From: Phycicoccus sp. M110.8 | GTDB lineage: Bacteria; Actinomycetota; Actinomycetes; Actinomycetales; Dermatophilaceae | Assembly: GCF_032464895.1 (NCBI RefSeq) | Contig: NZ_JAWDIC010000001.1 | Location: 992,001-1,056,000 of the forward strand | Direction of reading: 5' to 3' | DNA: 64,000 bases | In this document: positions 59-64,000 of the stretch, piece by piece | How positions within the stretch are numbered: position 1 is the stretch's first letter | Layout of the letters: each line of letters begins with the position of its first letter | The notes under the pieces: generated by a model | Database searches by the model: none | What the model saw: the letters and a program-made list of their open reading frames with translations, nothing else | What the model was told of the DNA's origin: nothing | Made by a program: the position numbers and the translations under genes

Positions 59-226
59 GCACCCGACCGTATTGACCCCTTGCGCCCGGTGAGGGCCGTT
101 TCGCACCTCTGCCGACCCGGACCGACCGAACGGACGAGGCCGGACGGCACGATCATGCCCTCCGGGCCGCGACCCGGCGCACCGGACCGGAGGGCGCCGG
201 TGCGGCGAAGGTGCCGCCCGGCGGCA

Positions 227-238
227 TACGGTGCCCAC
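227..238 (+). promoter_or_regulatory. Leaderless promoter -10 box of the GNAT gene
   Basis: TACGGT at 227-232 fits the actinobacterial -10 consensus TANNNT and is followed by exactly six bases (GCCCAC) and the GTG at 239. This spacing puts the predicted transcription start at or next to the start codon, so the mRNA would lack a leader; no Shine-Dalgarno sequence is seen. The box overlaps a copy of the recurrent octamer CGGCATAC (222-229). No clear -35 element. Confidence 0.45.
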
Positions 239-730
239 GTGATGATCCGCGAGATGACGGCGCAGGACGTACCGGCGTTCCTGCCCACCTTCCACGCGGT
301 CGTCGACGACGGCGAGACGTACGCCTACCCGCAGGGCCTGGACGAGGACGCGGTGCGCGGGCTCTGGCTCGAGCAGCCGCCCGGCCGCACGGTGGTCGCC
401 GTGGACGACGACGGCACCCTGCTCGGCAGCGCGAAGATGGGGCCCAACCGGCCGGGTCGCGGCTCGCACGTCGGGACGGCGAGCTTCATGGTGGCCGAGG
501 CCGCGCGCGGTCGGGGGGTCGGGCGCGCGCTCGCCGCGGAGGTGCTGGCGTGGCACCGGCGCGAGGGCTACGCGGGCATCCAGTTCAACGCGGTCGTCGA
601 GACGAACACCGCGGCCGTGCGGCTGTGGCAGGACCTCGGGTTCGAGGTGCTCACGACCGTCCCAGGAGCCTTCCAATCCAGGCGGCACGGCCGCGTCGGC
701 CTGCACGTGATGTACCTGCCCCTGGGCTGA
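239..730 (+). CDS. GNAT-family N-acetyltransferase
   Basis: Predicted cytosolic acetyl-CoA-dependent N-acetyltransferase of 163 residues, the usual size for a single GNAT domain. The acetyl-CoA pyrophosphate-binding loop (motif A, Q/RxxGxG/A) is visible as RGRGVG at residues 90-95, followed by an amphipathic helix, the NTAAVRLW segment and GFEV near residue 134, all standard GNAT landmarks. The substrate cannot be told; the C-terminal HVMYLPL resembles small-molecule or amino-acid acetyltransferases. GTG at 239 is preferred because a -10 box lies six bases upstream; ATG at 242 is the alternative. The frame is open further upstream, but that part is Arg/Pro-rich and not protein-like. The 3' end overlaps the convergent DUF1992 gene by 80 bases. 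Confidence 0.8.
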   Translation: MMIREMTAQDVPAFLPTFHAVVDDGETYAYPQGLDEDAVRGLWLEQPPGRTVVAVDDDGTLLGSAKMGPNRPGRGSHVGTASFMVAEAARGRGVGRALAAEVLAWHRREGYAGIQFNAVVETNTAAVRLWQDLGFEVLTTVPGAFQSRRHGRVGLHVMYLPLG

Positions 731-1181
731 CCTCGGCCGCCGCTGCCGCCCGGGCTCGTTCGGCGCGCGCCTGCTCGGCCCGCTCCTCCCGCAGGCGTCG
801 CCACTGCCCGACCATGTCCTCGACGTCGACGGTGGGGGCGATCAGCGGCGGCATCGCACCGACAGCAGGGCGCAGCCGGTCGAGCTTGACGCGCCGGTTG
901 AAGTCCTCGAGCACGGCCCGCACCGACTCCTCCGTGCGCAGGTCGAGCAGCGACTCGGGGAAGGTCTGCCGCTCCTTGCGCAGGGCAATCGCGGGCGGCA
1001 TCGCCCCGGTCATGTCGAGCTGCTCGCGCTGCACCAGGCCCTTGACCCACCAGTCCGGGTCGTCGACGTCCGAGGCCCCGATCCCGCGCAGCGGCTTCCC
1101 GGCGCCGGGCAGGTTGTCGAACTCGCCGCGCTCCTGCGCCTCGCGGATCGCGCGCTCCACCGGCGACTCCCAGGGGTCCAC
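651..1181 (-). CDS. DUF1992 (DnaJ-homologue subfamily C member 28 type) protein
   Basis: A 176-residue cytosolic protein. The N-terminal half shows the DUF1992 hallmarks: ERAIREAQERGEF, NLPGAGKPL near residue 24-32, a DDPDWWVKGL segment and a series of charged helices. The family is widespread in actinobacteria and also forms the conserved part of eukaryotic DNAJC28; its biochemical role is unknown. The tail from about residue 130 is Arg/Ala-rich, suggesting a disordered basic extension. GTG at 1181 is chosen because MDPWESPVERAI begins the family domain and a TAGGGT box lies six bases upstream. It is divergent from the B12-binding-type gene, with a short G+C-rich spacer holding mirrored promoter boxes. 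Confidence 0.75.
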   Translation of the reverse strand: MDPWESPVERAIREAQERGEFDNLPGAGKPLRGIGASDVDDPDWWVKGLVQREQLDMTGAMPPAIALRKERQTFPESLLDLRTEESVRAVLEDFNRRVKLDRLRPAVGAMPPLIAPTVDVEDMVGQWRRLREERAEQARAERARAAAAAEVSPGAGTSRAGRRGRAAWIGRLLGRS

Positions 1182-1185
1182 CCCT

Positions 1186-1285
1186 CGACCCTACGTCGGG
1201 CACGCGGCCCGGCGCCGCCGTCGCCGCCCCCCGCCCGCCCGGCCGCCGCCCGCCCGGCCGCCCGGCCGCGGGCCGCGTAGGGTCG
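1186..1285. promoter_or_regulatory. Divergent leaderless promoters with mirrored CGTAGGGTCG boxes
   Basis: The two divergent genes carry the same ten bases, CGTAGGGTCG, read in the direction of each gene: 1195-1186 for the minus-strand DUF1992 gene and 1276-1285 for the plus-strand gene. Each contains TAGGGT (1193-1188 and 1278-1283) followed by six bases and a GTG start. The pattern fits TANNNT -10 boxes driving leaderless mRNAs from both genes. The bases between are a C/G-only-rich tract with no other recognisable site. Confidence 0.5.
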
Positions 1286-1289
1286 CCGC

Positions 1290-2180
1290 GTGCGGATCGT
1301 CTCCCTGCTGCCCTCGACCACCGAGATCCTGTTCGCGATCGGCGCGGGCGACGACGTCGTCGGCGTGACGTTCGAGTGCGACACCCCGGCGCAGGCCCGC
1401 GAGCGCCGGATCGTGTCGACGACGGCGATCCCCGAGGGCCTGTCGTCGGCCCAGATCGACGCGTTCGTCACCCGCGCGATGGCCGCCGGCGAGGACCTCT
1501 ACCACCTCGACGCGGGCGCCCTGGCCGACCTCGACGCCGACCTCGTGGTGACCCAGGACCTGTGCGCAGTCTGCGCCGTCGACGTCTCCAAGGTGGACGA
1601 CGCCCTCGCGCACCTCGGCTGCACCGCCGAGGTCCTCACCATCGACCCGCACAGCCTCGAGGAGGTGCTCGGCTCCGTCCTCACCCTCGGCGCCGCAACC
1701 GGTCACGAAGACGAGGCCGCCTCCCTCGTGGCCGGGCTGCGCGAGCGCCTGTATGCCGTGGAGCGGCGCGTGCGCGACCGTCCCCGCCCGCGGGCGCTGG
1801 TGCTGGAGTGGACCGACCCGCCGTTCGCCCCGGGCCACTGGGTGCCGGAGATGGTCGAGGCCGCCGGCGCGGTGAGCGCGCTCGGGTCGGCCCGGGAGAA
1901 GTCGGTCCGCGTGACGTGGGACGACGTGCGCGCGAGCGCGCCCGAGGTCATCGTCTGCGCACCGTGCGGCTACGACCTGGAGGGGTCCGCTGCCCTCGCC
2001 CGCGCGGCGCTCGACGCCGGCGAGCTGCCGGACGGCATACCGGTGTGGGCGGTGGACGCGAACGCGTCGTTCGCCCGCCCCGGGCCCCGGCTCGTCGACG
2101 GCGTCGAGGCGCTGGCCTCGGTCCTGCACCCGGACGCGGCGCAGCCGCCGCGCCCGGACATGGCGCGACGGCTGCGGTAG
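1290..2180 (+). CDS. Cobalamin-binding (BtuF-like) protein without export signal
   Basis: A 296-residue protein of the periplasmic-binding-protein type II fold (Peripla_BP_2, BtuF/FhuD class). The start RIVSLLPSTTEILFAIGAGD is the typical first strand and helix of B12-binding proteins, and the two lobes (about 1-110 and 140-290) are present. There is no signal peptide or lipobox, so unlike transported BtuF it should act in the cytosol; no transporter genes are adjacent. Cysteines cluster as DLCAVC (C92, C95) and CAPC (about C223, C226), plus C30 and C111; I recall similar pairs in unexported members of this family. A role in corrinoid or metal handling is inference. GTG start follows a leaderless -10 box. 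Confidence 0.7.
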   Translation: MRIVSLLPSTTEILFAIGAGDDVVGVTFECDTPAQARERRIVSTTAIPEGLSSAQIDAFVTRAMAAGEDLYHLDAGALADLDADLVVTQDLCAVCAVDVSKVDDALAHLGCTAEVLTIDPHSLEEVLGSVLTLGAATGHEDEAASLVAGLRERLYAVERRVRDRPRPRALVLEWTDPPFAPGHWVPEMVEAAGAVSALGSAREKSVRVTWDDVRASAPEVIVCAPCGYDLEGSAALARAALDAGELPDGIPVWAVDANASFARPGPRLVDGVEALASVLHPDAAQPPRPDMARRLR

Positions 2181-3929: not shown

Positions 3930-5126
3930 ATGGGCAGGGCTCGACGCGCACGCAGGATCGCCGCGACGGCCGCCTACGGGGGCGGTGGGCTGGCTGCGGG
4001 GATCGGTGCGCTGGGGGCGCTCGGGTACGGCGTGCTCAAGGTCGAGGCGATGATGGCGCGCCGCGTCGTCGGCCAGCCGTTCGACGGCGCGCCCGACGAC
4101 AACGGCGTCTACGGCGCCGGCACCGGCGACCCCGTCGACCTCGTGGTGCTCGGCGACAGCTCCGCGGCGGGCATGGGCTGCGATTCCCCGCACCAGACCG
4201 TCGGCGCGATCATCGGCAACGGCGTCAGCGCGCTGACCGGCCGGCCGGTACGCCTCACCAACACCGCCGTGGTCGGGGCGGAGTCCTCCGACCTCGAGCT
4301 GCAGCTCGCCAACGCCCTCGACCTGGTCCCCCGGCCCGACGTCGCGGTCATCATGGTCGGCGCCAACGACGTCACCCACCGGATCGACCGGGCCGTGGCC
4401 GTCCGCCACCTCGAGCAGGTGGTGCGGGCCCTGCGCGAACTCGGCACCGAGGTCGTCGTCGGCACCTGCCCGGACCTCGGCACCATCCAGCCGATCCCGC
4501 AGCCGCTGCGCCTGCTCGGCCGGCGGTTCTCCCGCGACCTCGCGGCGGCCCAGACCGTGGCGGTCGTCGAGGCCGGCGGTCGCACCGTGTCCCTCGGCGA
4601 CCTGCTCGGCCCCGAGTTCGCCGAGCGCCCGCACGAGATGTTCAGCGAGGACCGCTTCCACCCCTCCCCGGCGGGGTACGCGCGGGCCGCGGCCGCGCTG
4701 CTGCCCAGCGTGTGCGCCGCCCTGGGCGTGTGGCCGGAAGGTACGGGCGCGGCACGCACCCCGGACTCCCGCCGCGGTGAGGGCGTCGGACCTGTCGCCG
4801 TGGCGGCGAAGTATGCCGTCATGGACCCCGGCACGGAGGTGAGCGCGACCGATGTCGGCGGCCAGAGCCGGGGACCCCGGGGCCGCTGGGCCATGCTGCT
4901 GCGCCGCCCGCGCGGTGGCGCGGCCGCGGCTGCCCCCGCTGCGGCAGCCGAGGGGAAGGCGGCGGGCTCCGAGGCGACCGGGACGGCGGGCCGCCCGGCC
5001 GACGCGACGCCGGTGGGGGCCACGGACGCCCGGACCCGGGCTCGGGACACATCCCCGACCGGCTCGGGCGAGAGCAAGCCCACATCCCCCGGACCGGCCG
5101 CACGGCATACCATCGACACGGACTAA
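3930..5126 (+). CDS. SGNH/GDSL-family hydrolase, membrane-anchored
   Basis: A 398-residue serine esterase/lipase-type protein. The four SGNH blocks are visible: GDSS at 75-78 (nucleophile Ser77), a Gly in the RLTNTAVVGA block (115), GAND at 144-147 (Asn146) and DRFH with Asp241/His244. A basic start (GRARRARRI) followed by a Gly/Ala/Leu-rich segment at about 12-36 looks like an uncleaved anchor. From about residue 330 the protein is a low-complexity Ala/Gly/Pro/Thr tail with no recognisable domain. ATG at 3930 is chosen because GRARRARRIAATAAYGGGG is the usual N-terminus of actinobacterial relatives and AGAGGGG precedes it; the ATG at 3873 would add 19 residues. Substrate unknown. Confidence 0.8.
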   Translation: MGRARRARRIAATAAYGGGGLAAGIGALGALGYGVLKVEAMMARRVVGQPFDGAPDDNGVYGAGTGDPVDLVVLGDSSAAGMGCDSPHQTVGAIIGNGVSALTGRPVRLTNTAVVGAESSDLELQLANALDLVPRPDVAVIMVGANDVTHRIDRAVAVRHLEQVVRALRELGTEVVVGTCPDLGTIQPIPQPLRLLGRRFSRDLAAAQTVAVVEAGGRTVSLGDLLGPEFAERPHEMFSEDRFHPSPAGYARAAAALLPSVCAALGVWPEGTGAARTPDSRRGEGVGPVAVAAKYAVMDPGTEVSATDVGGQSRGPRGRWAMLLRRPRGGAAAAAPAAAAEGKAAGSEATGTAGRPADATPVGATDARTRARDTSPTGSGESKPTSPGPAARHTIDTD

Positions 5127-6494: not shown

Positions 6495-6521
6495 TGGTGG
6501 CAGGTATGCCGTGTGCGCGCC

Positions 6522-8871: not shown

Positions 8872-8897
8872 GCGCCCAGTATGCCGGGGGCCGCGGC

Positions 8898-9741
<844 letters not shown>

Positions 9742-9758
<17 letters not shown>

Positions 9759-11235
9759 GATCGGCCTCCGAGGCGGTCGGGGTGGACAGGGGCTGGAAGT
9801 CCTCGTCGCGGCGGCGGCGGGTGCGCCACCAGTACGAGACGGTCGAGCCGGGCCAGAGCGTCGCGTTCCTGCCGTGCTCGTCCAGGTACCAGCTGTGGCA
9901 CCCGGTCGTCCACACCGTGTGCTGCGACCGACGGTCCATCTCGCGGCGGAAGGCCTCCTGCGCGGCGGGCGTGGTGACGGCGGGACCCTGCACCCGGGCG
10001 CGGGCCAGCGAGTCGAGGACGTAGCGGGTGGCGAGCTCGATCATGAGGACCACCGAGTTGTGGCCGAGGCCGGTGTTCGGCCCGAGCAGGACGTACAGCT
10101 CGGGGAAGCCGGCCACCGTCACACCGAGGTTGGTGCGCATGCCGTCGGCCCACGCGTCCGTGAGCGTGCGGCCGCCGAGGCCCCGGATGTCGATCCGCTC
10201 GTAGCTGCCGCGGACGTCGAACCCCGTGCCCAGGACGACGGCGTCGACCTCGTGGCGCGAGCCGTCCGCGGCGACGACCGCGCCGTCCTCGACGGCGGCG
10301 ATGGCCGACGTCACGAGGGACACGTCCGGCCGGTTGAAGGTGGGCCAGTAGTCGCTGGACAGCAGGATGCGCTTGCAGCCGATGCGGTAGCGCGGGGTGA
10401 GCTGGTCGCGGACCTGCGGGTCGTCGACGGCCTTGTGCAGCTCGCGCAGGGCCAGGCGCTCGACGAGCCGGGCGATGGCCGGGAAGCGCACGAACAAGGG
10501 CGCCCGTGCCTCTAGCTCCCAGTAGGTGCGCCACCGGACCGCGCGCTGGAGGGCCGGGAAGCGCCGGAAGAGCCGCTGGCGCCGCGGGCTCCACGGACGG
10601 TCCTTCTTCGGTATGGTCCACGCCGGCGTGCGCTGGAAGACCGTGGTGTGCGCGGCCCGCGGGGCCAGCTCGGGCAGCAGCTGCACCGAGCTCGCGCCGG
10701 TGCCCACGAGCGCGACACGCTTGCCGTCGAGGCCGTCCTGCTCGGGCCAGTCGGCCGTGTGCAGCACCGGCCCGGGGAACGTGTCGAGCCCCGGCACGTC
10801 GGGCACCCGGGGCTCGTGCAGCGCGCCCACGCCGAGGACCAGCGCGCCCGCCGTCCAATGCCGCCCGTCGGCCGCGGTGAGGTGCCAGCGGCGGGCCTGC
10901 TCGTCCCACTCGGCCGCGCGCAGGTCGGCGCCGAAGACGGTGCGCTCGCGCACGGCATACCGGTCGGCGACGTCGCGCAGGTAGGCCCAGATCTCGCCGG
11001 CCGTGGCGTAGTCGCGGGACCAGGACGGGTTCTGCTCGAAGGAGAAGGAGTAGAGCCGTGAGGGCACGTCGCACGCGCATCCCGGGTAGCGGTTGTCGCG
11101 CCAGGTGCCGCCGACCTCGGCGGCCTTCTCCAGCACGACGTAGTCGCGCTCGCCGCGCTGGGCCAGCCGGATCGCCATGCCGAGGCCGGAGAACCCGGTG
11201 CCCACGATCGCCACGGAGTGGTGGGGGACGGACAT
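9742..11235 (-). CDS. Baeyer-Villiger-type flavin monooxygenase
   Basis: A 497-residue FAD/NADPH monooxygenase inserting oxygen next to a ketone to give an ester or lactone. GTGFSG (12-17) is the FAD Rossmann loop, GTGASS (178-183) the NADPH loop, and between them lies the Baeyer-Villiger fingerprint FPGPVLHTADWP (153-164; consensus FxGxxxHTxxWP). Length and order match small type I enzymes. ATG at 11235 is preferred over a TTG three codons upstream, because the operator and -10 box leave no room for a leader; no Shine-Dalgarno is present. It precedes and overlaps an SDR gene and is divergent from a TetR regulator. Substrate not predictable. Confidence 0.86.
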
Positions 11236-11288: not shown

Positions 11289-11924
11289 GTGAGCACCGCC
11301 CCGCAGGACCGCCCGACCCGCCGCCGGATGCCGCGTGCCGAGCGCGAGGCGCAGATCCTCGTGGTCGCCGAGCAGGTCTTCGCCGAGCGCGGGTACTCGG
11401 CCACGACCATGGAGGACGTCGCCGAGCGCGTCGGGGTCACCAAACCGCTCATCTACGAGTACTTCGGGTCCAAGGAGGGGCTGCTCTCGGCCTGCATCGT
11501 CAAGGCGCGCACGCAGCTGCGCGAGGTCACCGAGGCCGCCTGGGAGGCCACCGGGCCGGGGGCCGAGCTCGTGGACGTGTTCCGCGCGGGGGTCCTCGCC
11601 TTCTTCGAGTTCATCGACGAGCACGCCAACGCCTTCGTCCTCATCCAGCAGGAGGGGGCGATGGCCTCGCAGGCGAGCCCCCTCATCGAGAGCATCCGCG
11701 AGCAGCAGTCCGAGGCCATCGCCCGCACCCTCGCGTCCGCGTCCGGGCTCGGCCAGGTGCCCTTCGAGCTCCTCCAGGGGTATGCCGAGGTGGTCGTCGG
11801 CGCGTGCGAGCGGGTCGCCGTGTGGCGCGCCCGGCGTCCGGGCACGACCGCGGGCGAGGCGACCGAGCTCGTGGTCTCGGCCCTATGGGGCGGCCTGGCG
11901 TCCCTGCAGCCCGACGCGGTCTGA
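11289..11924 (+). CDS. TetR-family transcriptional repressor
   Basis: A 211-residue regulator. Residues about 20-66 form the TetR DNA-binding domain, with the helix-turn-helix TTMEDVAERVGVTKPLIYEYFGSKEGLL and the usual Tyr/Phe at its end; the rest is an all-helical ligand-binding and dimerisation domain. It is divergent from the monooxygenase/SDR pair with a perfect palindrome between, so it very likely represses that pair and itself, released by the substrate or a related lipid or ketone (inference). GTG start is supported by a -10 box six bases upstream. It converges on the MCE gene with only 19 bases between the stops. Confidence 0.85.
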   Translation: MSTAPQDRPTRRRMPRAEREAQILVVAEQVFAERGYSATTMEDVAERVGVTKPLIYEYFGSKEGLLSACIVKARTQLREVTEAAWEATGPGAELVDVFRAGVLAFFEFIDEHANAFVLIQQEGAMASQASPLIESIREQQSEAIARTLASASGLGQVPFELLQGYAEVVVGACERVAVWRARRPGTTAGEATELVVSALWGGLASLQPDAV

Positions 11925-11943: not shown

Positions 11944-13419
11944 TCAACGCTGGTCGACGGTGCTGCCGCGGAGCATCGGGCCGGCGAGCAGGGTCGTGAT
12001 CGCCGACGGCGAGGTGGCCTGGGGTTCCAGGAGCGCGGTCACGAGCTGCTGCTCCTGCGTCGTCCCCGCGAGCCCCGCGTCCGGGTCGGGGATCGCCGCG
12101 CCCGCCGCGCCCGCGAACATCTGCGGCAGCGCCGAGTAGGACGGGTCGGAGCTGTAGCCGCCGACGTTGTGCGTGCCGTCGTCGAACTTCTTGCCCGGGA
12201 CGGGGTACTCCTGGCTCGTCGGGTGGCCGAACCGGTCGTGCGGGTTCGGCAGCAGGTTGCAGGCGGCGGGACGGTGCTCGCCCCAGCGGGGCTCCTCGCC
12301 GGGTGCGTAACCGGGCCGCTGCGAGGAGCTCAGCTCGACCGTGATGTGGAACCGGCGGTCGCGGAACGCGTCGTCGATGCGCGGCTGCCAGTCGACCAGG
12401 GCCTGGGTGAAGCAGGGGTACTGCGGCGAGTACTTGGCGAACAGCTCCATGGTCGGGCGGCCGACCTGCCCGACCCGGATGATGCGGTCACCGTTGGCAT
12501 CCAGGAAGTCTGCCGTCGTGTTCGCGAACCCCGCCGTCCCCGCCAGGAACCCCGCCAGCTGGTCCTTCTTCGTCACGATCGTCGTGTTCGTCGTGATCAG
12601 GTTCGTCGCCGCCCGCACCAGGTCCGGCGCCGCCACGGCATACGTGCTCGCCAGGTCAGCCAGCCCGCTGATGTCCGCCTTGATCACAGGCATCTTCGGG
12701 TTCAGCTGCTTGAAGTAGTCGTCCACCAGCACCAGGTTCTGACCCAGCCGCGTGCCGCGGCCCTCCAACGCCGACGCCAACGCGTTCAACGTCGTCGCCA
12801 GCTTCTCCGGCCGCACCGTCCGCAACAACGGCAACAGGTCGTCGAACACCTTCTCCAGCTCGATCGCCACACTCGTGCGGTCCTGCCGGATGGTGTCGCC
12901 CGACTCGAGGTGGCGCCCGGACGGGTGCGCCGGGGGCACGAGGTCGACGAAGCGCTCCCCGAACAGCGTCTTGGGCAGCAGGCGCGCGGACACGTCGGCG
13001 GGGATGAGGTCGACCTGCGCGGGGTCGAGCGCGAGGCGGAGCAGGGCACCGTGGCCGGTGGTGGAGATCCCGCGGACCTCGCCCACGATGAGGCCGCGGA
13101 TCTTGACGTCGGCGGAGGTCTGGAGCTGCGAGCCGATGCGGTCGGTCAGCAGGGTGACGTCGACCGTGCGGGTGAAGACCTTGGCGTACGACGCGACGCA
13201 CAGGGCCATCAGCAGGCCCACCACGAGCAGGAAGGCTGCGCCGTAGGCCCGGTCGCTCAGGCGGGCGATCCAGCCGCGCGCCGGGCCGATGGGCGAGGTC
13301 GGCGTGGTCGGGAGCACGGCGGCATCGAGGGCCCCCGGGTCGGCTGCCCGGTCGTCCTGCGGCGGTCGCACCCGTCCCTCGACCGTCCTCACCACCCCTC
13401 GCTGCGTGATGTGCGTCAC
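11944..13419 (-). CDS. Orphan MCE/MlaD-family protein
   Basis: A 491-residue protein with a cytoplasmic N-tail, one membrane span (about 60-79) and an extracytoplasmic MCE (MlaD) domain (about 86-165, with SADVKIRGLIVGEVRGI), then a long helical region with the Asn/Thr-rich stretch NLITTNTTIVTKK and a C-terminal tail. MCE proteins form hexameric rings or tunnels carrying lipids or sterols through an ABC permease (YrbE/Mla). In actinobacteria they normally come as yrbEA-yrbEB-mceA-F operons; no permease or other mce gene is here, so it must work with proteins encoded elsewhere or is a relic. Start GTG 13419 is uncertain; several in-frame GTGs follow. Confidence 0.75.
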   Translation of the reverse strand: MTHITQRGVVRTVEGRVRPPQDDRAADPGALDAAVLPTTPTSPIGPARGWIARLSDRAYGAAFLLVVGLLMALCVASYAKVFTRTVDVTLLTDRIGSQLQTSADVKIRGLIVGEVRGISTTGHGALLRLALDPAQVDLIPADVSARLLPKTLFGERFVDLVPPAHPSGRHLESGDTIRQDRTSVAIELEKVFDDLLPLLRTVRPEKLATTLNALASALEGRGTRLGQNLVLVDDYFKQLNPKMPVIKADISGLADLASTYAVAAPDLVRAATNLITTNTTIVTKKDQLAGFLAGTAGFANTTADFLDANGDRIIRVGQVGRPTMELFAKYSPQYPCFTQALVDWQPRIDDAFRDRRFHITVELSSSQRPGYAPGEEPRWGEHRPAACNLLPNPHDRFGHPTSQEYPVPGKKFDDGTHNVGGYSSDPSYSALPQMFAGAAGAAIPDPDAGLAGTTQEQQLVTALLEPQATSPSAITTLLAGPMLRGSTVDQR

Positions 13420-13595: not shown

Positions 13596-14549
13596 TCAGG
13601 CGGTGCGGCCGGCGACGGACAGCGCGATGCCGTCGAGGATGTCGTGCTCGGAGGTCACGACACGCTCGACGCCGCGGGCGGCCAGGCGGGAGACGACCTC
13701 GCGCCAGATCAGCGCCCCGCCGCCGATGACGTCGACGCGACCGGGGTGCATGAAGCCGAGCTCGGCGCGCTGGGCCCGGGTGCGGTGCAGCAGGTCCTCG
13801 CACGAGGCGATGACCTCGTCGGGGGTGAGCGTCGACAGGTGGATCCGGGCAGGGTCGTACTCGGGCAGGCGCAGGGCGTTCGCCGTGATCGTGGTGACGC
13901 TGCCGGCGAGGCCGACGAGCGAGGCGACGCCGTCGAGGTCGACGACCTCCTCGGCCAGGTCGAGGGCCGCGCGGACGTCGCGCACCGCCGCCTCGACCTC
14001 CTCGGCCGTCGGCGGGTCCGAGACCAGGTGCCGCTCGGTCATCCGGACGCAGCCGATGTCGACGGAGCGAGCGGACTCCACCCGGTCGGTGCCCCGGACG
14101 AGCTCGGTCGAGCCACCGCCGAGGTCGACCACGAGGTACGGCCCCGGGATGCCGTGGGCCCGCAGGTCCCCGGTCGCGCCGCGGAAGGACAGGGCGGCCT
14201 CCTCGTCGCCGGAGACGACCTCGGGGGCGACGCCGTAGTCGCCGAAGGCGTCGCGGACCCCGGCCACGAACTCCCCCGCGTTCGAGGCGTCCCGGGACGC
14301 GGAGGTGGCCACGAACCGCACCCGCTCGGCGCCCAGCTCACGGCACTGCCCGGCATACGTGCCCGCCATGGCCAGCGTGCGGGCCATGGCCTGCGGGTCG
14401 ATCGAGCCGGTGCGGTCGACGCCGTAGCCCAGGCGCACGACCTCCATCCGGCGCAGCACGTCGGTGAGCTCGCCGGTGGCCGGGTCGACGTCGGCCACGA
14501 GAAGGCGGATGGAGTTGGTGCCGCAGTCGACGGCGCCGACGCGCGTCAC
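13596..14549 (-). CDS. ppx: Ppx/GppA exopolyphosphatase-type phosphatase
   Basis: A 317-residue member of the ASKHA-fold Ppx/GppA family, degrading polyphosphate and/or pppGpp. Phosphate loop 1 is AVDCGTNSIRLLVADVD (6-22), loop 2 DLGGGSTEL, with the acidic SGDEEAALSFRG segment between. The length matches the short actinobacterial form (two ASKHA domains, no C-terminal HD domain); some short homologues bind rather than hydrolyse substrate, so activity is not assured. GTG at 14549 overlaps the DUF501 stop by four bases (GTGA), giving a coupled ftsB/divIC - DUF501 - ppx operon, an order common in actinobacteria. Confidence 0.87.
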   Translation of the reverse strand: MTRVGAVDCGTNSIRLLVADVDPATGELTDVLRRMEVVRLGYGVDRTGSIDPQAMARTLAMAGTYAGQCRELGAERVRFVATSASRDASNAGEFVAGVRDAFGDYGVAPEVVSGDEEAALSFRGATGDLRAHGIPGPYLVVDLGGGSTELVRGTDRVESARSVDIGCVRMTERHLVSDPPTAEEVEAAVRDVRAALDLAEEVVDLDGVASLVGLAGSVTTITANALRLPEYDPARIHLSTLTPDEVIASCEDLLHRTRAQRAELGFMHPGRVDVIGGGALIWREVVSRLAARGVERVVTSEHDILDGIALSVAGRTA

Positions 14550-17159: not shown

Positions 17160-17255
17160 GGACCGGACCAATGGGGCGTATGCCGCGCGGCACACGCGGC
17201 GGCCGGGCTGGTCGAAGGCCCCGGGGAGGGCGGACCCCCTCGCGGGCCCGCGGGC

Positions 17256-19406: not shown

Positions 19407-19928
19407 GTGGCCCTCGCGGTGTGCCTGCTCTTCGACACCCGGACCGACCGTGCGCTGCGCGGGCTGTGGGCCCGCCTCGAGGAGCACGGCATACCGACGC
19501 TGCTCACCCACACGCACCGTCGGCACGTGCCGCACGTGTCGTATGCCGTGTACCGCACCTTCGACGTCGACCGCGTGCTGGCGGCGGTCGCGGACCTCGC
19601 CCCCATCGAGCCGGTCACCCTGCACTTCGACGCGGTCGCGCTGTTCCGGCGGCGTCGCGCAGCCCTCGTCGCCGCCGCCACCCCGCAGCTCCTCGCGCGC
19701 CAGGCCGCGGTCGTGGCCGCCGGCGAGGCGACGGGCGCGGACCTGCACGTGCACTACCGCCCGGGTCAGTGGATCCCCCACGCGAGCCTGGCCACCAGCG
19801 TGCGGCGCGACGACGTCGCGACCGCCGCCACGACGGCGTTCGAGATCCTGCCGCTGCGGGCGGTCGCCGAGCGGGTCGCCCTCGTCGACAGCAGCACCGG
19901 CCGGCGGTGGGACCTGCCGGCGCCGTGA
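19407..19928 (+). CDS. 2H phosphoesterase (2'-5' RNA ligase family)
   Basis: A 173-residue two-histidine phosphoesterase. Two HxS motifs define the active site: HVS at 43-45 and HAS at 125-127, about 80 residues apart as expected for the bilobed fold. Family members open 2',3'-cyclic phosphates or join 2'-5' RNA ends; the physiological substrate here is unknown. GTG at 19407 fits a leaderless transcript (CACAAT six bases upstream). It contains two copies of the octamer motif, one forcing ATA (Gly-Ile-Pro) and one TAT. Convergent with mazG. Confidence 0.8.
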   Translation: MALAVCLLFDTRTDRALRGLWARLEEHGIPTLLTHTHRRHVPHVSYAVYRTFDVDRVLAAVADLAPIEPVTLHFDAVALFRRRRAALVAAATPQLLARQAAVVAAGEATGADLHVHYRPGQWIPHASLATSVRRDDVATAATTAFEILPLRAVAERVALVDSSTGRRWDLPAP

Positions 19929-41538: not shown

Positions 41539-41642
41539 GACGCCTGCCCCCTGCTCGTGCTGTTCTCGTTCTCAGTGCTGCTGTTGCTGTTGTCGGTGCT
41601 CGTGCAGCTGCCGCTGCGGCTCCTGCTGTCGGTGCTGTTCAT
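41535..41642 (-). CDS. 35-residue Ser/Thr/Asn-rich small ORF coupled at both ends
   Basis: A short frame of 36 codons exactly fills the space between asnB and the two-domain oxidoreductase. Its ATG overlaps the asnB stop (ATGA, 41642-41639) and its TGA overlaps the next GTG start (GTGA, 41538-41535). The peptide starts MNSTDSRSRSGSC and ends with GQAS; more than half its residues are Ser, Thr or Asn, with Glu/Arg and a single Cys, no hydrophobic segment. No family is recognised. It could be a true small protein or a translated bridge that keeps ribosomes moving to the downstream gene. Confidence 0.5.
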   Translation of the reverse strand: MNSTDSRSRSGSCTSTDNSNSSTENENSTSRGQAS

Positions 41643-43557: not shown

Positions 43558-44850
43558 CTAGGCCCCCGACCCCACCCGTGGGCGTCCGGCCGCCGTCGAC
43601 CGGGCGGACCGCGCCGGCCCGGCGGACGCGGACCGGGTCCGCCCGCTGAGGTCGTCGAAGACCGCGAGGTAGCCGCCCCGCTGGTGCTCCCAGGCGAGCT
43701 GGGTCTCCACGCGCTCGCGGCCGTACCGGCCCATCTCCGCCCGGGTGGCCGGGTCGTCGACGAGCTCGACGATGGCACGGGCGTACGCCTCGACGTCACC
43801 GGGCTGGACGTAGCGGGCGGCGTCCTGGGCCGACACGCGCGTCTCGTGCAGGTCGAAGGCCACGACCGGCAGGCCGAACGACATGTACTCCATCGTCTTG
43901 TTCATCGTGGAGACGTCGTTCAACGGGTTGAGCGGGTCGGGTGACAGGCCGACCTCGGCGGTGGAGAAGACGGAGACGACGAAGTCGTCCGGGACGCGCC
44001 CGGGCATCTCGACGTGGTCCTCCAGGCCCAGCCGGTTCCGCTCGGCGACCAGGTCGGCCCAGCAGTCGCCGCCACCCATGAGGCAGAAGCCGATGTCGGT
44101 GCGCCCCAGCCGGTTGACGACGATGTCGGCCGCCTGCAGGGCCACGTCTACACCGTCCTGGGGGCCCATGACCCCGAGGTAGGCGACGAGGTGGTCGTGG
44201 CCGCGCCGCAGCTCCGGCTCGGCCTCGCGGCGACGCAGCTTCTCCGGGTCCGGCCCGGTCCGCACCACGGTGACCCGCTCCGGCGGCTTGCCGCCCCGGG
44301 ACGTGGCGATCGCGGCATACGACTCGTTGGTGGAGGTGATCCGGTCGGCGGTCCGGAACGTCATCCGCTCCAGGAAGAGCAGGCCGCGCAGGAACGCGCG
44401 CCGGCCCGTCGGGAAGCGCGACTCGAACAGCTCGGGGCACAGGTCGTGGTGGTCGAAGACGAAGCGCGTCCCGTCGAGGACGCGCAGGGCCCACGCCAGC
44501 GGCCAGAAGATGTCCGGCGGGTTGCACGCCTGGACGACGCGGAACGCGCCGCTGCGACGGGCGCGCAGGGCCAGGCGCGCGGTGGCGAGGAAAGAGTAGG
44601 CGTACTCGGTGATGAAGCCCAGCGCTCCCCCGCCCGGGGCGTAGGGGCGGTAGGCGAGGATGCGCACGCCGTCGACGACCTGCGCGGCGCCGGTGCCGTG
44701 GCCCTGCGGGCAGACGACCGTCACGTCGTAGCCGGCCCCGGTGAGCGACTGGCACTCGAGCCAGACCCGGCGGTCGAACGGCACGGGGAGGTTCTGGACG
44801 ATGACCAGGACGCGGGGCCGCGCCGAGCCGCTGCTGCGACGTCGGCTCAC
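43558..44850 (-). CDS. Glycosyltransferase, family 4 (GT-B)
   Basis: A 430-residue GT-B glycosyltransferase. RVLVIVQNLPVPFDRRVWLECQSL is the typical start of a WcaI/WbuB-like group; FDHHDLCPELFESRF and STNESYAAIA follow, and the donor domain has VAYLGVMGPQDGVDVALQAA and a Glu-containing motif near TMNKTMEYMSFGLPVVAFD. It may transfer the uronic acid or an amino sugar, but specificity is not visible. The last about 30 residues are Ser/Ala/Arg-rich. GTG at 44850 overlaps the dehydrogenase stop (GTGA). Confidence 0.85.
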   Translation of the reverse strand: MSRRRSSGSARPRVLVIVQNLPVPFDRRVWLECQSLTGAGYDVTVVCPQGHGTGAAQVVDGVRILAYRPYAPGGGALGFITEYAYSFLATARLALRARRSGAFRVVQACNPPDIFWPLAWALRVLDGTRFVFDHHDLCPELFESRFPTGRRAFLRGLLFLERMTFRTADRITSTNESYAAIATSRGGKPPERVTVVRTGPDPEKLRRREAEPELRRGHDHLVAYLGVMGPQDGVDVALQAADIVVNRLGRTDIGFCLMGGGDCWADLVAERNRLGLEDHVEMPGRVPDDFVVSVFSTAEVGLSPDPLNPLNDVSTMNKTMEYMSFGLPVVAFDLHETRVSAQDAARYVQPGDVEAYARAIVELVDDPATRAEMGRYGRERVETQLAWEHQRGGYLAVFDDLSGRTRSASAGPARSARSTAAGRPRVGSGA

Positions 44851-49402: not shown

Positions 49403-50533
49403 TCATGGCGCCACCCGGACTGCCTGCCGCAGCACGTCGGCGACCCGCTCCTGCTGGCTGGGGGTGATGCCCGGGAACAGCGGCAGCGACAGGATCTGCT
49501 GCGACGCCCGCTCGGCCACCGGGAACCGGCCGGGTCCGTACCCGAGGTGGCCCATGGCGGGGGTCAGGTGCACCGGCGTCGGGTAGTGAACGCCGGCGCC
49601 GACGCCCTCCTCCTGGAGGTGGCGCAGGACCTCGTCGCGGCGGTCGACCCGCACCACGTAGAGGTGCCAGACGTGATCGTTGCCCTCCAGGGTCGTCGGC
49701 AGCCTCACGCCGTCGGTGTCGGCGAGCAGCTCGTCGTACACCGCGGCCGCGGCACGTCGCTCGGCGTTCCACCCGCGCAGGCGCGCGAGCTTGGCCGACA
49801 GCACCACTGCCTGGAGGGTGTCGAGCCGGGAGTTGAAGCCGACCACGGTGTGCTCGTACTTGGCGGGGCTGCCGTGGGCGCCCAGCAGCCGCACCGCCTG
49901 CGCGACCTCCTCGTCGTCGGTCAGCACCGCGCCGGCGTCGCCGTAGGCCCCCAGGTTCTTGCCGGGGTAGAAGCTCGTCGCCGCCACGTCGCCGAAGGTC
50001 CCGGCGGCCTTCCCGTGCCGCGTCGCCCCCTGCGACTGGGCACCGTCCTCGACGACGCGTATGCCGCGCTGCGCCAGGGCCGCGGGCAGCTGCTCGAAGG
50101 GCGCGACCTGGCCGAAGAGGTCGACGGGCACGACGGCCCGGGTGCGACCGGTCAGCGCCGCCTCGGCCGAGGCCGGGTCGAGCAGCAGCGCGTCGTCGTC
50201 GACGTCGGCGAACACGGGCGTGCCCCCGGCGCGCAGCACGGCCTCGGCAGTGGCGATGAAGGTGTTGGCCGGCAGGACGACCTCGTCCCCGGGACCGACC
50301 CCGACCGCCCGCATCGCCAGCTCCAGCGCGTCGGTGCCGTTGCCCACGCCGACGCACGCGCGGGCGCCGGTGAACTCGGCATACGCGCGCTCGAAGGCGC
50401 CCACCGCCTTGCCGCCGATGAAGTCACCGGTCGACAGCACCTCGGCGAAGCCCTGGGCGACCTCGTCCGCCACCTGCGCGTGCTGCACCGACAGGTCGAC
50501 GAGGGGCACCCCGGCCCGCTGCTCGGCGCCCAT
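49403..50533 (-). CDS. DegT/DnrJ/EryC1/StrS sugar aminotransferase
   Basis: A 376-residue fold-type I PLP aminotransferase adding an amino group to a keto-nucleotide sugar. GNGTDALELAMRA contacts PLP phosphate, VEDGAQSQGA holds the Asp, and SFYPGKNLGAYGDAG the Schiff-base Lys (about 192). The series resembles WbpE/FdtB-type 3-aminotransferases. The ATG overlaps the upstream aminotransferase stop by one base (TGATG), so the two are coupled. Two octamer copies lie in it, one forcing ATA (Gly-Ile-Arg), one TAT. Confidence 0.85.
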   Translation of the reverse strand: MGAEQRAGVPLVDLSVQHAQVADEVAQGFAEVLSTGDFIGGKAVGAFERAYAEFTGARACVGVGNGTDALELAMRAVGVGPGDEVVLPANTFIATAEAVLRAGGTPVFADVDDDALLLDPASAEAALTGRTRAVVPVDLFGQVAPFEQLPAALAQRGIRVVEDGAQSQGATRHGKAAGTFGDVAATSFYPGKNLGAYGDAGAVLTDDEEVAQAVRLLGAHGSPAKYEHTVVGFNSRLDTLQAVVLSAKLARLRGWNAERRAAAAVYDELLADTDGVRLPTTLEGNDHVWHLYVVRVDRRDEVLRHLQEEGVGAGVHYPTPVHLTPAMGHLGYGPGRFPVAERASQQILSLPLFPGITPSQQERVADVLRQAVRVAP

Positions 50534-54625: not shown

Positions 54626-57600
54626 TCACCCGGTGCTGAAGACGATGTCGACCCAGTAGTTCGTGGCCTTGAACGAGTTGTTCGGGAACGTGCTGCTGGC
54701 ACCGTAGGCGTACACGCCGTTCCCGCCGCTCGCACCGTTCTTCAGCGCGTGCAGGGGTGGGTTGTCCACCCCTGCCGAGTTGAAGTACTGGCTGTCCTGG
54801 GAGTAACGGCCGACGGGCGCGAAGTACGACGCCACGTAGACGGTCCCGGCGGTGACGGCCACGGGTGTCGCGAAGCTCACCTGCTGCCAGCCCGAGGCGG
54901 TCTCACCGCTGAAGGTGGCCGAGGCCAGCTTCGTGCCGGTCGAGCTCCACAGGTTTCCGACGTGGGTGCCGGTGTTGGTCGAGCCCTTGTAGAAGCGGAT
55001 GCCGGTGACGAAGCCACTGACGTCCGACTTGAACTTCACCCCGACCTCGACCGAGGAGGTGTCGGTGGAGCTCGCCGTGCCCGGTGTCGCCGTGGCCGCC
55101 CAGATGGTGCAGGCGGTGCACGTCACCGACTTCGGCGTGACCGCGTTCGAGGCGGTCGACGCCGGCCCGGTGCCGACCGCGTTCGTCGCGGTGACGGTGA
55201 AGGTGTACGTGGTGCCGTTCGTCAGGCCGGTGACCGTCGCCGTGGTGGCAGGCGGGTTACCCGTCACCGTGGTCGGCGTCTGGGCGGTCGTGCCCACGTA
55301 CGGGGTGATCGTGTAGCTCGTGATCGCGCTGCCACCGTTGGACGGCACGCCCCAGCTCACCACCGCGCTCGCGTTGCCGGCGGTGGCCGTCACGCCCGTC
55401 GGGGCGCCCGGGGCCGTGGCGGCGGCGTTGCTGAACACCGCGTCGACCCAGTAGTTCGAGGCGTTGTACGAGTTGCTCGGGAAGATGCTCGTGCTGCCGT
55501 AGGCGTACACGCCGTTCCCGCCGTTCGTGCCGTCCTTGAGGGCGTGCAGCGGTGGGTTGTCCACCGCCGAGGCGAAGTAGCCGGAGTCGGCGGCGTAGTG
55601 GCCGACGGGCGCCAGGTAGGACACCACGTAGACGGTGCCCGCGGTGATGGTGACCGGCGTGGAGAAGTACGCCTGCTGCCAGCCCGAGGCTGTCTCGGAG
55701 GCGAACGTCGCCGACGCGAGCCTGGTCCCCGTGGAGCTCCACAGGTTGCCCACGTGGGTGCCCGTGTTGGCAGTGCTCTTCCAGAACCGGACACCGGTCA
55801 CGGTCCCGCCCACGTCGGAGGTGAACTTCACCCCGAGCTCGACCGAGGACGTGTCGCCCGAGTCGCCGTTCGCCGGCGTGGCAGAGCTCGACCAGATCGT
55901 GCAGGCGCTGCACGTCACCGGCGCGGGCGTCACGCTGTTCGAGGCGGCCGATGCCGGGCTCGTGCCGACGGAGTTCGTGGCCGTGACCTTGAACGTGTAT
56001 GCCGTGCCGTTGGTCAGGCCGCTCACGGCGGCCGACGTCTGGGGCGGGCTGCCGCTCACCGTCGTCGCCGTCTGGGCCGTCGTTCCGACGTACGGCGTGA
56101 CCGTGTAGGACGTGATGGGGCTGCCACCGTCGGCGGGCGCCGCCCACGTGACGGTGGCGCTCGAGTCACCGGCCGCCGCCGTCACACCGGTGGGTGCGGA
56201 CGGTGCGGTGGTGGCGGTCGTCGTGCTGAAGACGACGTCCACCCAGTAGTTCGACGAGTTGTAGGTGTTCGACGGGAAGGTGCTCGACCCGGCGTAGGCA
56301 TAGACGCCGTTCCCGCCGCTCGTCCCGTCCTTGAGCGCGTGCAGCGGCGCGTTGTCGACCGCGGCCGTGAAGTAGCCACCATCCAGGGCGTAGCCGCCCG
56401 CGGGGGCGAAGTACGACGCGACGTAGACGGTCCCGGCGGTGACCGCCACGGGGCTGGCGAAGCTGACCTGCTGCCAGCCGGAGGCGCTCTCGCCGGTGAA
56501 GGTGGCCGAGGCCAGCTTCGTGCCCGTCGAGGACCACAGCGAGCCGACGTGCGTGCCGGTGTTGCCGGAGCCCTTGTAGAAGCGCACGCCGGAGACGTAG
56601 CCGGAGACGTCGGAGGTGAACTTGACGCCCAGCTCCACCGACGACGTGTCGCTCGCGCTGCTGGTCGTCGGCGTCGCCGTCGACGGCCAGATGGTGCACG
56701 GCGTGCAGCTGGTCGGCGCGGCCGGGGTCACCGTGTTCGACGGCAGCGAGTCCGCGCTCGTGCCGAGGGAGTTCGTGGCGGTGACCGTGAAGGTGTACGC
56801 GGTCCCGTTCGTGAGCCCGGTGACCGTCGCGGTCGTCGCCGGCGGGGTGCCGGTGACCACGGTGGCGGCGAGGGTGGTGGACCCGACGTGCGGCGTCACG
56901 GTGTAGGCCGTGATGGCGCTGCCGCCGTCCGCGGGCGCGGTCCAGCTGACGGTCGCCGCGGCGTTCCCCGCCGTCGCCGTCACGCCGGTCGGCGCGCTCG
57001 GGACGGTGTTGCTGCTGGGCGTCACCGGTGCCGACGCGGCCGAGGCCGGGCCGGTCCCGATGGCGTTGGTGGCCGTCACCGTGAACGTGTACGTCGTGCC
57101 GTTGGTCAGTCCGGAGACGGTGCCGCTGGTGGCGGCCGGGGTGCCGGTCACCGTGGTGGTCGGCTGCGCCGTCGTGCCGACCCAGGGCGTGATCGTGTAC
57201 TGGGTGATCTGGCTCCCGCCGTCGGACGGCGCGGTCCAGGTCAGGCTCGCCGAGCCGTTGCCCGCCGTCGCCACGACGTTCGTGGGGGCCGACGGGGCGG
57301 TCGGGGCCTGTGGCGTGACCGACGCCGAGGCCGCGGACTGCGGACCGGTTCCCAGCGCGTTGGTGGCGGCGACCTTGAAGGTGTAGGCAGTCCCGTTGCT
57401 GAGCCCGGTCACCGTGGCCGTCGTCGCCGGCGGGGTGCCGGTGACCGTGGTGGGGGTGAGCGCGGTCGTGCCGACGTACGGCGTCACCGTGTAGCTCGTG
57501 ATCGGGCTGCCGCCGTCGGCCGGCGCGGTCCAGGTGACCGTGGCCGTACCGTTGCCCGCGGTGGCGCCGACGCCGGTCGGCGCGCCGGGCACGCTCGCGG

Positions 57601-61959: not shown

Positions 61960-63053
61960 CGCCCGGCTCCCGCCGCCACGAGGCCCCGCTGGGGCTGCAG
62001 GCCGGCGTGGCCGAGCGGCATACCCACTGCGGCCATGGCACCGGCACGGCGCTGGCTCTCCGTCGCGGCCTCGAGCACGGACAGCACGCGCAGGCCGGCC
62101 CACCCGTCGGTGGCGGGGGCGCGGCCCTCGGTGATGGCGGCCGCGAACTCGGCCGCCATGAGCCCCAGGGCCTCCCGCTCGGGGAGCGCCGGTGCGTGCA
62201 TGTCGCCCAGCCGGTAGTTGACGTTCACGAGCCGCTTCTCCGCGGTGTCCGCACCGTCGGAGGTCAGGTCGAGGTCGACGCCGCGGTCGTAGACGGACAG
62301 CCGCTGCTGCGGGTTGAGGTCGTCCCAGACCACGGTCCGGCGGCTGCCGCCGATGACCATGTGCCGGATCTTGGTGGGGCTGAGCCAGTTGACGTGCACG
62401 TTGGCGATGGCACCGCCGGGCAGCGGCATCGTCAGGTAGCCCAGGCAGGAGTGGCCGTTGCCGATCGGGTCGGCTCCACGGGCGGAGACCTCCAGCGGCG
62501 ACAGGCCCCCGGGGAGGACGAAGTCGAGGATGGACAGGTCGTGCGGGGCGAGGTCCCAGAAGACGTCGACGTCGGACCGCACGAGCCCGAGGTTGATCCG
62601 CACCGAGTCGACGAACAGGATGTCGCCGAGCTCGCCGCCCTGCACGAGCGCCCGCAGGTGCTGCACGGCGGGCGTGTAGCAGTAGGTGTGGTCGCACATG
62701 AGGACCAGGCCGAGCTCCTCCGCACGCGCGACCATCCGCTCGGCGTCGGCCCGGCTGGAGGCGATCGGCTTCTCGACCAGGACGTGCTTGCCGGCCTCGA
62801 GCGCGGCGAGCGCGATCGCGCAGTGCGTGTCCGCCGGTGTGGCCACGGCCACGGCGTCGACGTCGTCACGGGCGAGCAGCGCCTCGAGCGAGGTCTCGAT
62901 GTCGACCGTGCTGCGGGGACCGAGGACGGCCGCCGCACGCTGGGCGTCGAGGTCGCAGAGCGCGACGACCTCCCAGTCCGGGCTGGACCCGAAGTTCCGA
63001 ACCAGGTTCGGACCCCAGTACCCCGCCCCCACCACGGCCACGCGCAAGCTCAT
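61956..63053 (-). CDS. Gfo/Idh/MocA-family oxidoreductase
   Basis: A 365-residue NAD(P)-dependent sugar oxidoreductase. VVGAGYWGPNLVRNF is the Rossmann loop; VEKPIASS holds the catalytic-site Lys of the family, and the C-terminal domain has HVNWLSPTKIRHMVIGG. Together with a DegT aminotransferase and an acetyltransferase such proteins make 3-amino uronic acids (WlbA/WbpB series), so it may oxidise C3 of a nucleotide-uronic acid; this is inference. ATG at 63053; a small hairpin GGGGCC-CGTAC-GGCCCC (63072-63088) lies in its leader. Confidence 0.82.
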   Translation of the reverse strand: MSLRVAVVGAGYWGPNLVRNFGSSPDWEVVALCDLDAQRAAAVLGPRSTVDIETSLEALLARDDVDAVAVATPADTHCAIALAALEAGKHVLVEKPIASSRADAERMVARAEELGLVLMCDHTYCYTPAVQHLRALVQGGELGDILFVDSVRINLGLVRSDVDVFWDLAPHDLSILDFVLPGGLSPLEVSARGADPIGNGHSCLGYLTMPLPGGAIANVHVNWLSPTKIRHMVIGGSRRTVVWDDLNPQQRLSVYDRGVDLDLTSDGADTAEKRLVNVNYRLGDMHAPALPEREALGLMAAEFAAAITEGRAPATDGWAGLRVLSVLEAATESQRRAGAMAAVGMPLGHAGLQPQRGLVAAGAGR

Positions 63054-63198
63054 CGGACATCCCCTCTCGACGGGGCCCGTACGGCCCCTCTGACGGGAAT
63101 CGTCGCCGTCACCGCGACACGGCGCCTCGGCTCTTTGCGGTAGGGCAGGGGTGCACCATCTGCACGGTGCGGACCGGCCGCCGACGACGGCCCGGCCA

Positions 63199-64000
63199 TC
63201 AGTAGGCCCCAGTGCCGCGCAGGACGGCCCGAGCCGTGCGGAACAGGATCTGCAGGTCCAGCACCATCGACCAGTTGTCGACGTACCAGAGGTCGAGGCG
63301 CAGGCTCTCGTCCCACGACAGGTTGCTGCGGCCGCTGACCTGCCACAGCCCGGTGAGGCCGGGACGCACGCGCAGCCGGCGCACCGCGTCGGGCTCGTAG
63401 GCGTCGACCTCGCGCTGGAGGGCCGGCCGGGGACCCACGAGCGACATCTGGCCGGCGAGCACGTTGAGCAGCTGCGGGAGCTCGTCCAGGGAGTACCGGC
63501 GCAGGAGCCTGCCCACGCGGGTGACCCGCGGGTCGTCCTTCATCTTGAACATGACGTCGTTGCCGGCGTCACGCTGGAGGGCGGCCAGCCGCTCCTCCGC
63601 GTCCACGCACATGGTGCGGAACTTGAGCATGGAGAAGGTCTCGCCGCGGGCCCCGACCCTGTTCTGCCGGAACAGGATCGGACCCGGCGAGTCCAGGCGG
63701 ATCGCCAGGGCGATGGTGAGGCCGACGGGCAGCGCGGCCAGCAGCAGCAGCGCGGTGAGCAGCCGCTCCATGGCCACCTTGAGGACCCGACGCGCACCCG
63801 ACATGACGGGCCGCTCGACGTGCAGCAACGGCATACCCGCCGTGGGCCGAATGGACAGCCGCGGGCCGGCGACGCCGAGCAGGCCCGCGGAGACCACGAG
63901 GTCCACCTCCCGCTCCTCGAGAGACCACGCCAGCCGACGCAGCTCGGGACCGTGCAGGTCCGGGTCGCTGGACACCGCGACGACCTCGGCGTCGAAGAGG
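63199..64000 (-). CDS. Polyprenyl-phosphate sugar-1-phosphate transferase (priming enzyme), partial
   Basis: The 3' part of a bacterial sugar transferase (WbaP/CpsE class); the gene continues past the window end, and about 267 residues are visible. Before the catalytic domain come about 75 residues of the Rossmann-like part (LVVSAGLLG). Then a membrane helix (LTALLLLAALPVGLTIALAIRL), PGPILFRQNRVG, FRTM, RYSLDELPQLLNVLAGQMSLVGPRP and RPGLTGLWQVSGRS, all family signatures. It puts the first sugar phosphate on undecaprenyl phosphate and so starts the repeat unit. The codon at 63975 (GTG) is internal, not the start. Confidence 0.92.
   Translation of the reverse strand, partial: LFDAEVVAVSSDPDLHGPELRRLAWSLEEREVDLVVSAGLLGVAGPRLSIRPTAGMPLLHVERPVMSGARRVLKVAMERLLTALLLLAALPVGLTIALAIRLDSPGPILFRQNRVGARGETFSMLKFRTMCVDAEERLAALQRDAGNDVMFKMKDDPRVTRVGRLLRRYSLDELPQLLNVLAGQMSLVGPRPALQREVDAYEPDAVRRLRVRPGLTGLWQVSGRSNLSWDESLRLDLWYVDNWSMVLDLQILFRTARAVLRGTGAY

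Follow-up and report, generated by a model that had tools for sequence, protein, structure and literature searches.

What maintains a single exact octamer, CGGCATAC, at high density in the genome of a high-GC Gram-positive bacterium? The question is raised by 64,000 bases of Phycicoccus sp. M110.8 (contig NZ_JAWDIC010000001.1, positions 992,001 to 1,056,000), referred to here as the window, which is the whole stretch of DNA that was analysed. An earlier note on this DNA had counted 34 copies, 17 in each orientation and far above chance, and had offered a DNA-uptake sequence (DUS), a methylation target or a nucleoid protein binding site as explanations. The count was reproduced exactly; the 34 copies, 17 per strand, span 222 to 63829-63836, whereas 100 dinucleotide shuffles of the window gave a mean of 0.88 copies and a maximum of 4. 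The unit is as sharply defined as had been claimed, with 34 of 34 GGCATAC heptamers extending to the full octamer, and the dinucleotide CA, described as frequent before it, directly precedes 14 of the 34 copies. The reading favoured here, with a probability of roughly 0.6, is that CGGCATAC is a DUS, a self-recognition tag for natural transformation.

The window's own genome (G000; 4,117,279 bases) contains 2,476 copies (1242 and 1234 by strand), or one in about 1.7 kb. Written in reverse, these letters occur 135 times (61 and 74), so that genome-wide counts do not lie near expectation, as the earlier note had allowed that they might. In a 524 kb sample the octamer was found 296 times against 8.7 expected from a second-order Markov model and topped the enrichment of all 8-mers, the second and third ranks being taken by 8-mers that overlap it. 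Nor is the enrichment shared by shifted variants, the other doubt that had been raised; the 24 one-base variants sum to 361 copies against 375.5 expected. The surrounding bases are nearly free, with at most 0.4 bits at each flanking position, and the strongest preferences, which in part reflect codon structure, are for C at -2 (71%) and -5 (55%) and for a purine at -1 (A and G 69% combined). There is no conserved sequence beyond the core of the kind that a dispersed repeat or insertion element would carry. Sequencing primers and adapters do contain the letters of the octamer, yet carry-over from them was rejected because the bases flanking the copies vary.

The octamer is not palindromic (its reverse complement is GTATGCCG), but the two orientations are balanced. 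Over 24 stretches the strands hold 149 and 147 copies, with no heterogeneity along the genome (chi-square P=0.99), and the balance extends across the 113 genomes defined below as carriers (standard deviation of z 0.77). The lack of heterogeneity over the 24 stretches means that CGGCATAC is not a polar motif, and the polarity along the replichore that characterises a motif of the Chi or KOPS (FtsK-orienting polar sequence) type was not found. Two intergenic inverted pairs have a hairpin-like arrangement (L060 918/944 and L070 11290/11308). Inverted pairs are not claimed as terminators, because intervals below 100 bp, in any orientation, are no commoner than at random (4.4% against 6.0% expected).

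Within genes, as defined by our own simple gene caller rather than a standard one, the window copies fall in several reading frames, and the codon tally of the earlier note was matched exactly on recount. Fourteen copies place a TAT tyrosine codon before GCC. Two of these have the wider contexts CTG-TAT-GCC-GTG (1751..1758, minus strand, gene 1290-2180) and AAG-TAT-GCC-GTC (4811..4818, minus, gene 3930-5126); the others are on the plus strand at 9164..9171 (gene 8898-9758), 10953..10960 (9742-11235), 12636..12643 (11944-13317), 14351..14358 (13596-14549), 28217..28224 (28122-29234), 29785..29792 (29231-30373), 38845..38852 (37244-39346), 39501..39508 (39343-41538), 44313..44320 (43558-44850) and 50377..50384 (49403-50533), and on the minus strand at 11780..11787 (11289-11924) and 19541..19548 (19407-19928). 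Seven, all on the minus strand, read GCA-TAC: after GCG at 9381..9388 (gene 8898-9758), 24580..24587 (21493-25089) and 30863..30870 (30377-31669), after ACG at 28395..28402 (28122-29234), 29642..29649 (29231-30373) and 55997..56004 (54626-60805), and after CCG at 37116..37123 (35661-37247). Five supply the isoleucine codon ATA as GGC-ATA (Gly-Ile), at 2033..2040 (plus, gene 1290-2180), 19487..19494 (plus, 19407-19928), 20146..20153 (minus, 19952-20926), 42307..42314 (minus, 41639-43546) and 50059..50066 (minus, 49403-50533). Three plus-strand copies read GGT-ATG-CCG, at 24001..24008 (gene 21493-25089), 62016..62023 (61956-63053) and 63829..63836 (63199-63999), and one reads CGG-CAT-ACC (5103..5110, plus, gene 3930-5126). 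The remaining four lie outside called genes, at 222..229 (plus), 6504..6511, 8879..8886 and 17178..17185 (all minus).

The earlier note had concluded from such codons that selection acts on the DNA and not on the protein. Consistent with this, TAT accounts for 136 of 175 tyrosine codons (78%) in the context nnG-Tyr-GCC-Gnn, and for 1-7% in the seven contexts where one or more of the three elements around it do not fit. Alanine before TAC is encoded by GCA in 85 of 121 cases if the previous codon ends in CG, and in 15 of 294 otherwise; the octamer context likewise favours GCA among Ala codons, ATA among Ile codons and nGT before ATG. Bias towards the octamer base was seen at six of the eight positions (0, 1, 3, 4, 6 and 7). 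For positions 0, 1, 3 and 7 the comparison is confounded, since rare codons elsewhere in the context mostly owe their presence to the octamer, and the clean evidence of DNA-level bias is that from positions 4 and 6. Position 5 offered only two rare frames of 14 contexts each, with the octamer base used once in each (no significant bias), and position 2 gave no testable codon context. The conclusion is supported, with this confounding at four positions. Octamer density also varies with the G+C content of third codon positions (GC3). The two gene classes of lowest GC3 (10 and 23 genes) have 0.21 and 0.29 copies per kb, the three classes above them 0.61-0.68, and the top class 0.35.

Could the copies instead be products of a mutational or gene-conversion bias, in which a local process converts near-misses (GTACGCCG) into GTATGCCG without any benefit? 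The commonest coding change, TAC to TAT before GCC-G, is indeed a C-to-T step. However, the preferences for GCA, ATA and nGT before ATG go beyond that step, and the dialects described below differ at different positions. Furthermore, non-coding DNA in the 524 kb sample contains 41 octamers against 1.5 expected, while its one-base variants, all 24 kinds together, number 52 against 47; there are too many octamers relative to these near-misses for a simple hotspot to have supplied them. A single mutational hotspot was rejected on the codon-context and non-coding counts, and an explanation of this general kind appears very improbable.

The octamer is not confined to one species. The protein encoded at 21493-25089 (Mfd-like by reading) has its best match, 86%, in a metagenome-assembled genome (MAG) labelled Dermatophilaceae, and its next matches, at about 72-79%, in Knoellia, Phycicoccus, Janibacter, Intrasporangium and Terrabacter. 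Dermatophilaceae is taken here in the broad GTDB sense, the membership of 186 genomes having been inferred from the window's named relatives. With our own cut-offs for a carrier (75 or more copies per Mb and a count no lower than 2.5 times that of the control), these genomes, from 53 genera, comprise 113 carriers (32 genera), 69 genomes below the cut-offs and 4 weak ones; genomes with a dialect (G011, G026, G030 and G033) were scored as non-carriers. None of 22 genomes from other families of the order passed; their highest count is 167, and the ratio to the control ranges from 0.5 to 3.6. It is clear that the distribution is family-wide but patchy, and three mostly-carrier genera each include a single species without the octamer: G065 (37 copies), G127 (19) and G151 (50). 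The tyrosine and alanine codon contexts, filled with the octamer in 101 of 118 cases in G001, are filled in 0 of 17 in G127 and 0 of 10 in G151.

Named loci, of which 75 of 80 were analysed (five under 9 kb were skipped), show the same patchiness. There are 10-25 copies per 18-24 kb in Knoellia (three loci), Terrabacter (two), Humibacillus, Intrasporangium oryzae, Janibacter HTCC2649, Tetrasphaera australiensis, Phycicoccus elongatus, Ornithinimicrobium and Flexivirga, none in Phycicoccus jejuensis, Phycicoccus sonneratiae, Janibacter indicus or Janibacter anophelis, and one in Agilicoccus. The 41 lower-ranking loci, mostly from named members of other families, contain 13 copies in 879 kb, and their tyrosine and alanine contexts are filled in 9 of 146 cases.

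Conservation between relatives is also about twice as frequent for octamer sites as for control 8-mers. Where window sites could be aligned without gaps in ten congeners and one named MAG, 52 of 98 were identical, against 23.7 expected from frame-matched control 8-mers, and identity was highest in the two densest regions (G001, 10 of 11; G004, 9 of 11). DNA inserted in tadA tends to be poor in the octamer. The insertion in G017 has 1 copy in 11.0 kb against 12.4 expected, that in G003 has 3 in the 22.6 kb examined against 12.9, and that in G009 has 3 against 4.3, a deficit too small for significance. Significant scarcity was thus seen in two of the three inserts, in a small sample that includes only parts of two of them. 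Scarcity of uptake sequences has been used in Neisseriaceae for finding integrative elements (PMC7371117).

The scarcity in two of the inserted elements and in the lowest-GC3 genes, together with dispersed copies at near-random spacing, would also suit a site bound by a protein of the nucleoid or of replication, segregation or recombination (Chi-, KOPS- or SMC-like), in which case the dialects would track the protein. Against such a site stand the absence of orientation heterogeneity in the sampled regions and the strand balance among the carriers. Furthermore, 20 of the 53 genera lack the site (a dialect takes its place in a few of them), as do the single species of carrier genera noted above, losses that would be unexpected for a core chromosome protein. 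We consider this explanation unlikely.

Some Dermatophilaceae carry one-base dialects instead of, or beside, CGGCATAC: CCGCATAC, CGGCATCC, CGGCGTAC, CGGCATTC and CG[TC]CATAC. The first two were counted on whole genomes and the others in samples. CCGCATAC occurs 1204 times in G030 (control 107) and 32 times in G000, and none of the other 35 genomes exceeds the 459 copies of G028 (G021 follows with 433); in a sample from G028 it stands beside the standard form. Counts of CGGCATCC are 260-976 in 34 genomes and rise to 3816 in G026 and to 1336 in G011. CGGCGTAC replaces the standard form in G033 (66 against 11.2 expected in a 116 kb sample), CGGCATTC accompanies it in G022 (13 against 0.4 in 14 kb), and CG[TC]CATAC accompanies it in samples from G013, G014 and Flexivirga. 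In a separate observation, CCGCATAC is repeated 17 times at a spacing of about 61 bases in G012 (C17:129291-130273), probably as part of a CRISPR array.

Sharp specificity with lineage-specific variants would also suit an enzyme, and the main rival to an uptake role is an octamer maintained by a DNA methyltransferase together with methyl-directed repair or replication control. The closest precedent is the cyanobacterial HIP1 (highly iterated palindrome 1), likewise an exact octamer of high frequency; in some genomes it is reported to be scarce or missing, other motifs apparently having taken its place (PMC4390886). HIP1 is tied to methyltransferases; it is also palindromic, which CGGCATAC is not. 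A profile search of G000 gave no match to PF01555 or PF02384 (PF00145, PF02086, PF07669 and PF20473 were not searched for), and these two amino-methyltransferase families, of which PF01555 was found in 8 and PF02384 in 16 of 30 genomes, are scattered over carriers and non-carriers. The methylation target proposed in the earlier note has accordingly lost ground through the missing PF01555 and PF02384, the other methyltransferase families lying outside the search, and seems improbable, if slightly less so than the protein binding site.

The uptake systems of two other families provide further parallels. In Neisseriaceae the DUS occurs in thousands of copies and is short and non-palindromic, with dialects a few bases apart that are described as following phylogeny, and within the one family carriers stand next to genomes that have no obvious motif (PMC3630211). 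The likeness does not extend to the sequence, since the Neisseriaceae DUS is an unrelated one of 10-12 bp with a CTG core, whereas CGGCATAC has 8 bp. For the uptake signal sequence (USS) of Pasteurellaceae, too, a short tag with two dialects in one family is described (PMC12616744); the flanks of CGGCATAC, by contrast, are nearly free apart mainly from C at -2 and A or G at -1. The receptor of the Neisseriaceae DUS is given as the minor pilin ComP of a Gram-negative type IV pilus (PMC6370729), and that of the USS is predicted to be a type IV minor pilin (PMC12616744). Here the host is a high-GC Gram-positive with a Tad pilus, and the uptake role is putative.

The machinery for transformation appears to be present. 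G000 encodes comEC (PF03772 match), an apparent ComEA, a ComF-like protein and a tad pilus locus, the gene order of which is that reported for Micrococcus luteus, where tad genes are required for transformation by a Flp/Tad pilus (PMC4322843). The term "uptake sequence" is absent from the main text of that paper; in G000, by contrast, the tad locus shares a genome with an uptake-like motif, and homology alone suggests its role in uptake. A full tad set was found in 20 of the 21 genomes first compared, both carriers and non-carriers, the exception being G030, in which it is interrupted. Furthermore, in 77 of the 186 genomes, chosen by us and with two weak genomes counted among the non-carriers, all 36 of the carriers sampled yielded competence-type TadA, whole in 31 of them and interrupted or partial in 5, and it was missing from 10 of the 41 remaining genomes, the 10 belonging to seven genera. 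The association is significant (Fisher P 0.0013 by genome and 0.005 by genus), uncorrected for descent.

If the octamer is a DUS, a surface part of the Tad-pilus/ComEA machine would bind it in either orientation, and DNA that bears it would be taken up preferentially. Recombination of the imported DNA would then favour alleles with the octamer and rebuild decayed sites. A changed receptor specificity could give rise to dialects, and loss of the receptor would leave the sites to decay. The exactness of the octamer and its lack of polarity are accounted for by this reading. To the earlier suggestion of a DUS have now been added the dialects, the patchy family-wide distribution, the conservation between relatives, the scarcity in two of three inserts and the association with tad, though no receptor was found.

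Several observations weigh against an uptake role. No report of natural transformation in this family was found among the best-ranked matches in the open-licence literature, and copies show no close pairing beyond random spacing in the 524 kb sample. Site conservation is absent in two sparse congeners, G009, which has 836 copies in its genome (2 of 18 sites identical), and G010, which has 625 (1 of 6), although this is the outcome expected where the pressure has weakened. The machine cannot be sufficient, since ComEC occurs in 47 of 47 genomes searched, carriers or not, and competence-type TadA in 31 of 41 non-carrier or weak genomes. The search for a receptor gave no candidate: three TadE/F-like pilins are present in carriers and non-carriers alike, with no consistent positive charge and no feature of charge or sequence that separates the carriers, and so the idea of an electropositive pilin as receptor received no signal. 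In some carriers, moreover, the machinery is damaged. The pieces of tadA lie about 71 kb apart in G003 (L239/L240), about 79 kb in G009 (L241/L242) and about 11 kb in G017 (L243); in G031 they are on two contigs (L245/L258), and in G027 (L244) only about the first 206 residues were found. In G004, a dense carrier with 2,537 octamers, the ComEC domain is in two adjacent pieces (C1:1517076-1517881), perhaps through a frameshift. Finally, G134, one of the genomes with the unrelated octamer described below, has 3,180 copies of it and no competence-type tadA.

The breaks in tadA fall at about residues 205-230 in G003, G009, G017 and G027, and elsewhere in G031, and a gene that reads as a serine recombinase lies near the edge of the insert in G003, G009 and G017. 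Mobile elements have been described in a competence gene, comEC, of another species (PMC12955456), and the tadA inserts would fit a live competence system under attack; cells with a broken tadA may not be competent now. The tad locus is cut at a further point. In both G127 (L248 6556) and G030 (L090, about 8400), members of two genera, tadC leaves the family sequence at the same place (KEIAMMV) and is followed by other DNA, perhaps marking a second preferred insertion point. Replacement of the pilins as the source of the G030 dialect was dropped, because its tad locus is interrupted after tadC, where transposase-like genes are found. The 6.6 kb after the cut tadC of G127 gave no match to Flp or to any of the three TadE/F-like genes, although a displaced cassette further along the contig is possible; loss of the pilins as the cause of motif loss in this species is suggestive.

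Two related genera do not fit. In g62 and g66, which have few copies of CGGCATAC, an unrelated octamer, CGAAGGGG, occurs at a similar density, with 1781-3180 copies per genome in seven genomes (G132, G133, G134, G098, G100, G103 and G110) against 84-297 in 25 others. It is also found in named loci (L122 and L125), Janibacter indicus and Janibacter anophelis both sharing it. Its orientation is balanced, and 45 of 57 sampled copies are inside called genes; a 20 kb sample of G098 has only one. Either CGAAGGGG is a second uptake motif that has outlived its machine, or the over-represented octamers of this family have another cause, and it is this misfit that holds confidence in the uptake role of CGGCATAC at the level given above. 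The contig end sampled in G132 (L213, C1:1-20000) has the same sequences on both strands, as an inverted duplication or an assembly artefact. In G065, its genus's one species without CGGCATAC, CGTAGACC occurs 21 times in 40 kb in both orientations (L202, L203), although in the other samples, too, it averages 2.2-fold over expectation.

Known uptake sequences belong to two Gram-negative families, Neisseriaceae and Pasteurellaceae, both with type IV pili, and we know of none outside them. The earlier note knew of no such motif in actinobacteria, and in agreement with this neither an uptake motif nor an over-represented octamer in these bacteria was found among the best-ranked matches in the open-licence literature. 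Searching for the octamer itself is uninformative, since its letters occur in sequencing primers. It is possible, though we would put it at somewhat less than an even chance, that the Dermatophilaceae have the first DUS system outside those two families, independently evolved in Gram-positive actinobacteria and read by a Tad-pilus machine, with at least five one-base dialects and wholesale replacement by CGAAGGGG in two genera. Even without an uptake role, CGGCATAC remains an octamer that is selected family-wide and takes precedence over codon choice. If it is an uptake sequence, the two known cases would be joined by a third of independent origin, among high-GC Gram-positives that use Tad pili, and DNA self-tagging would be seen to evolve repeatedly. 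The dialects and the replacement by CGAAGGGG would then form a natural series for locating the receptor through co-evolution. Natural transformation would be predicted for a largely environmental family that includes wastewater and soil genera, and the genetics of these strains would be helped, in that DNA should bear the dialect octamer of the recipient.

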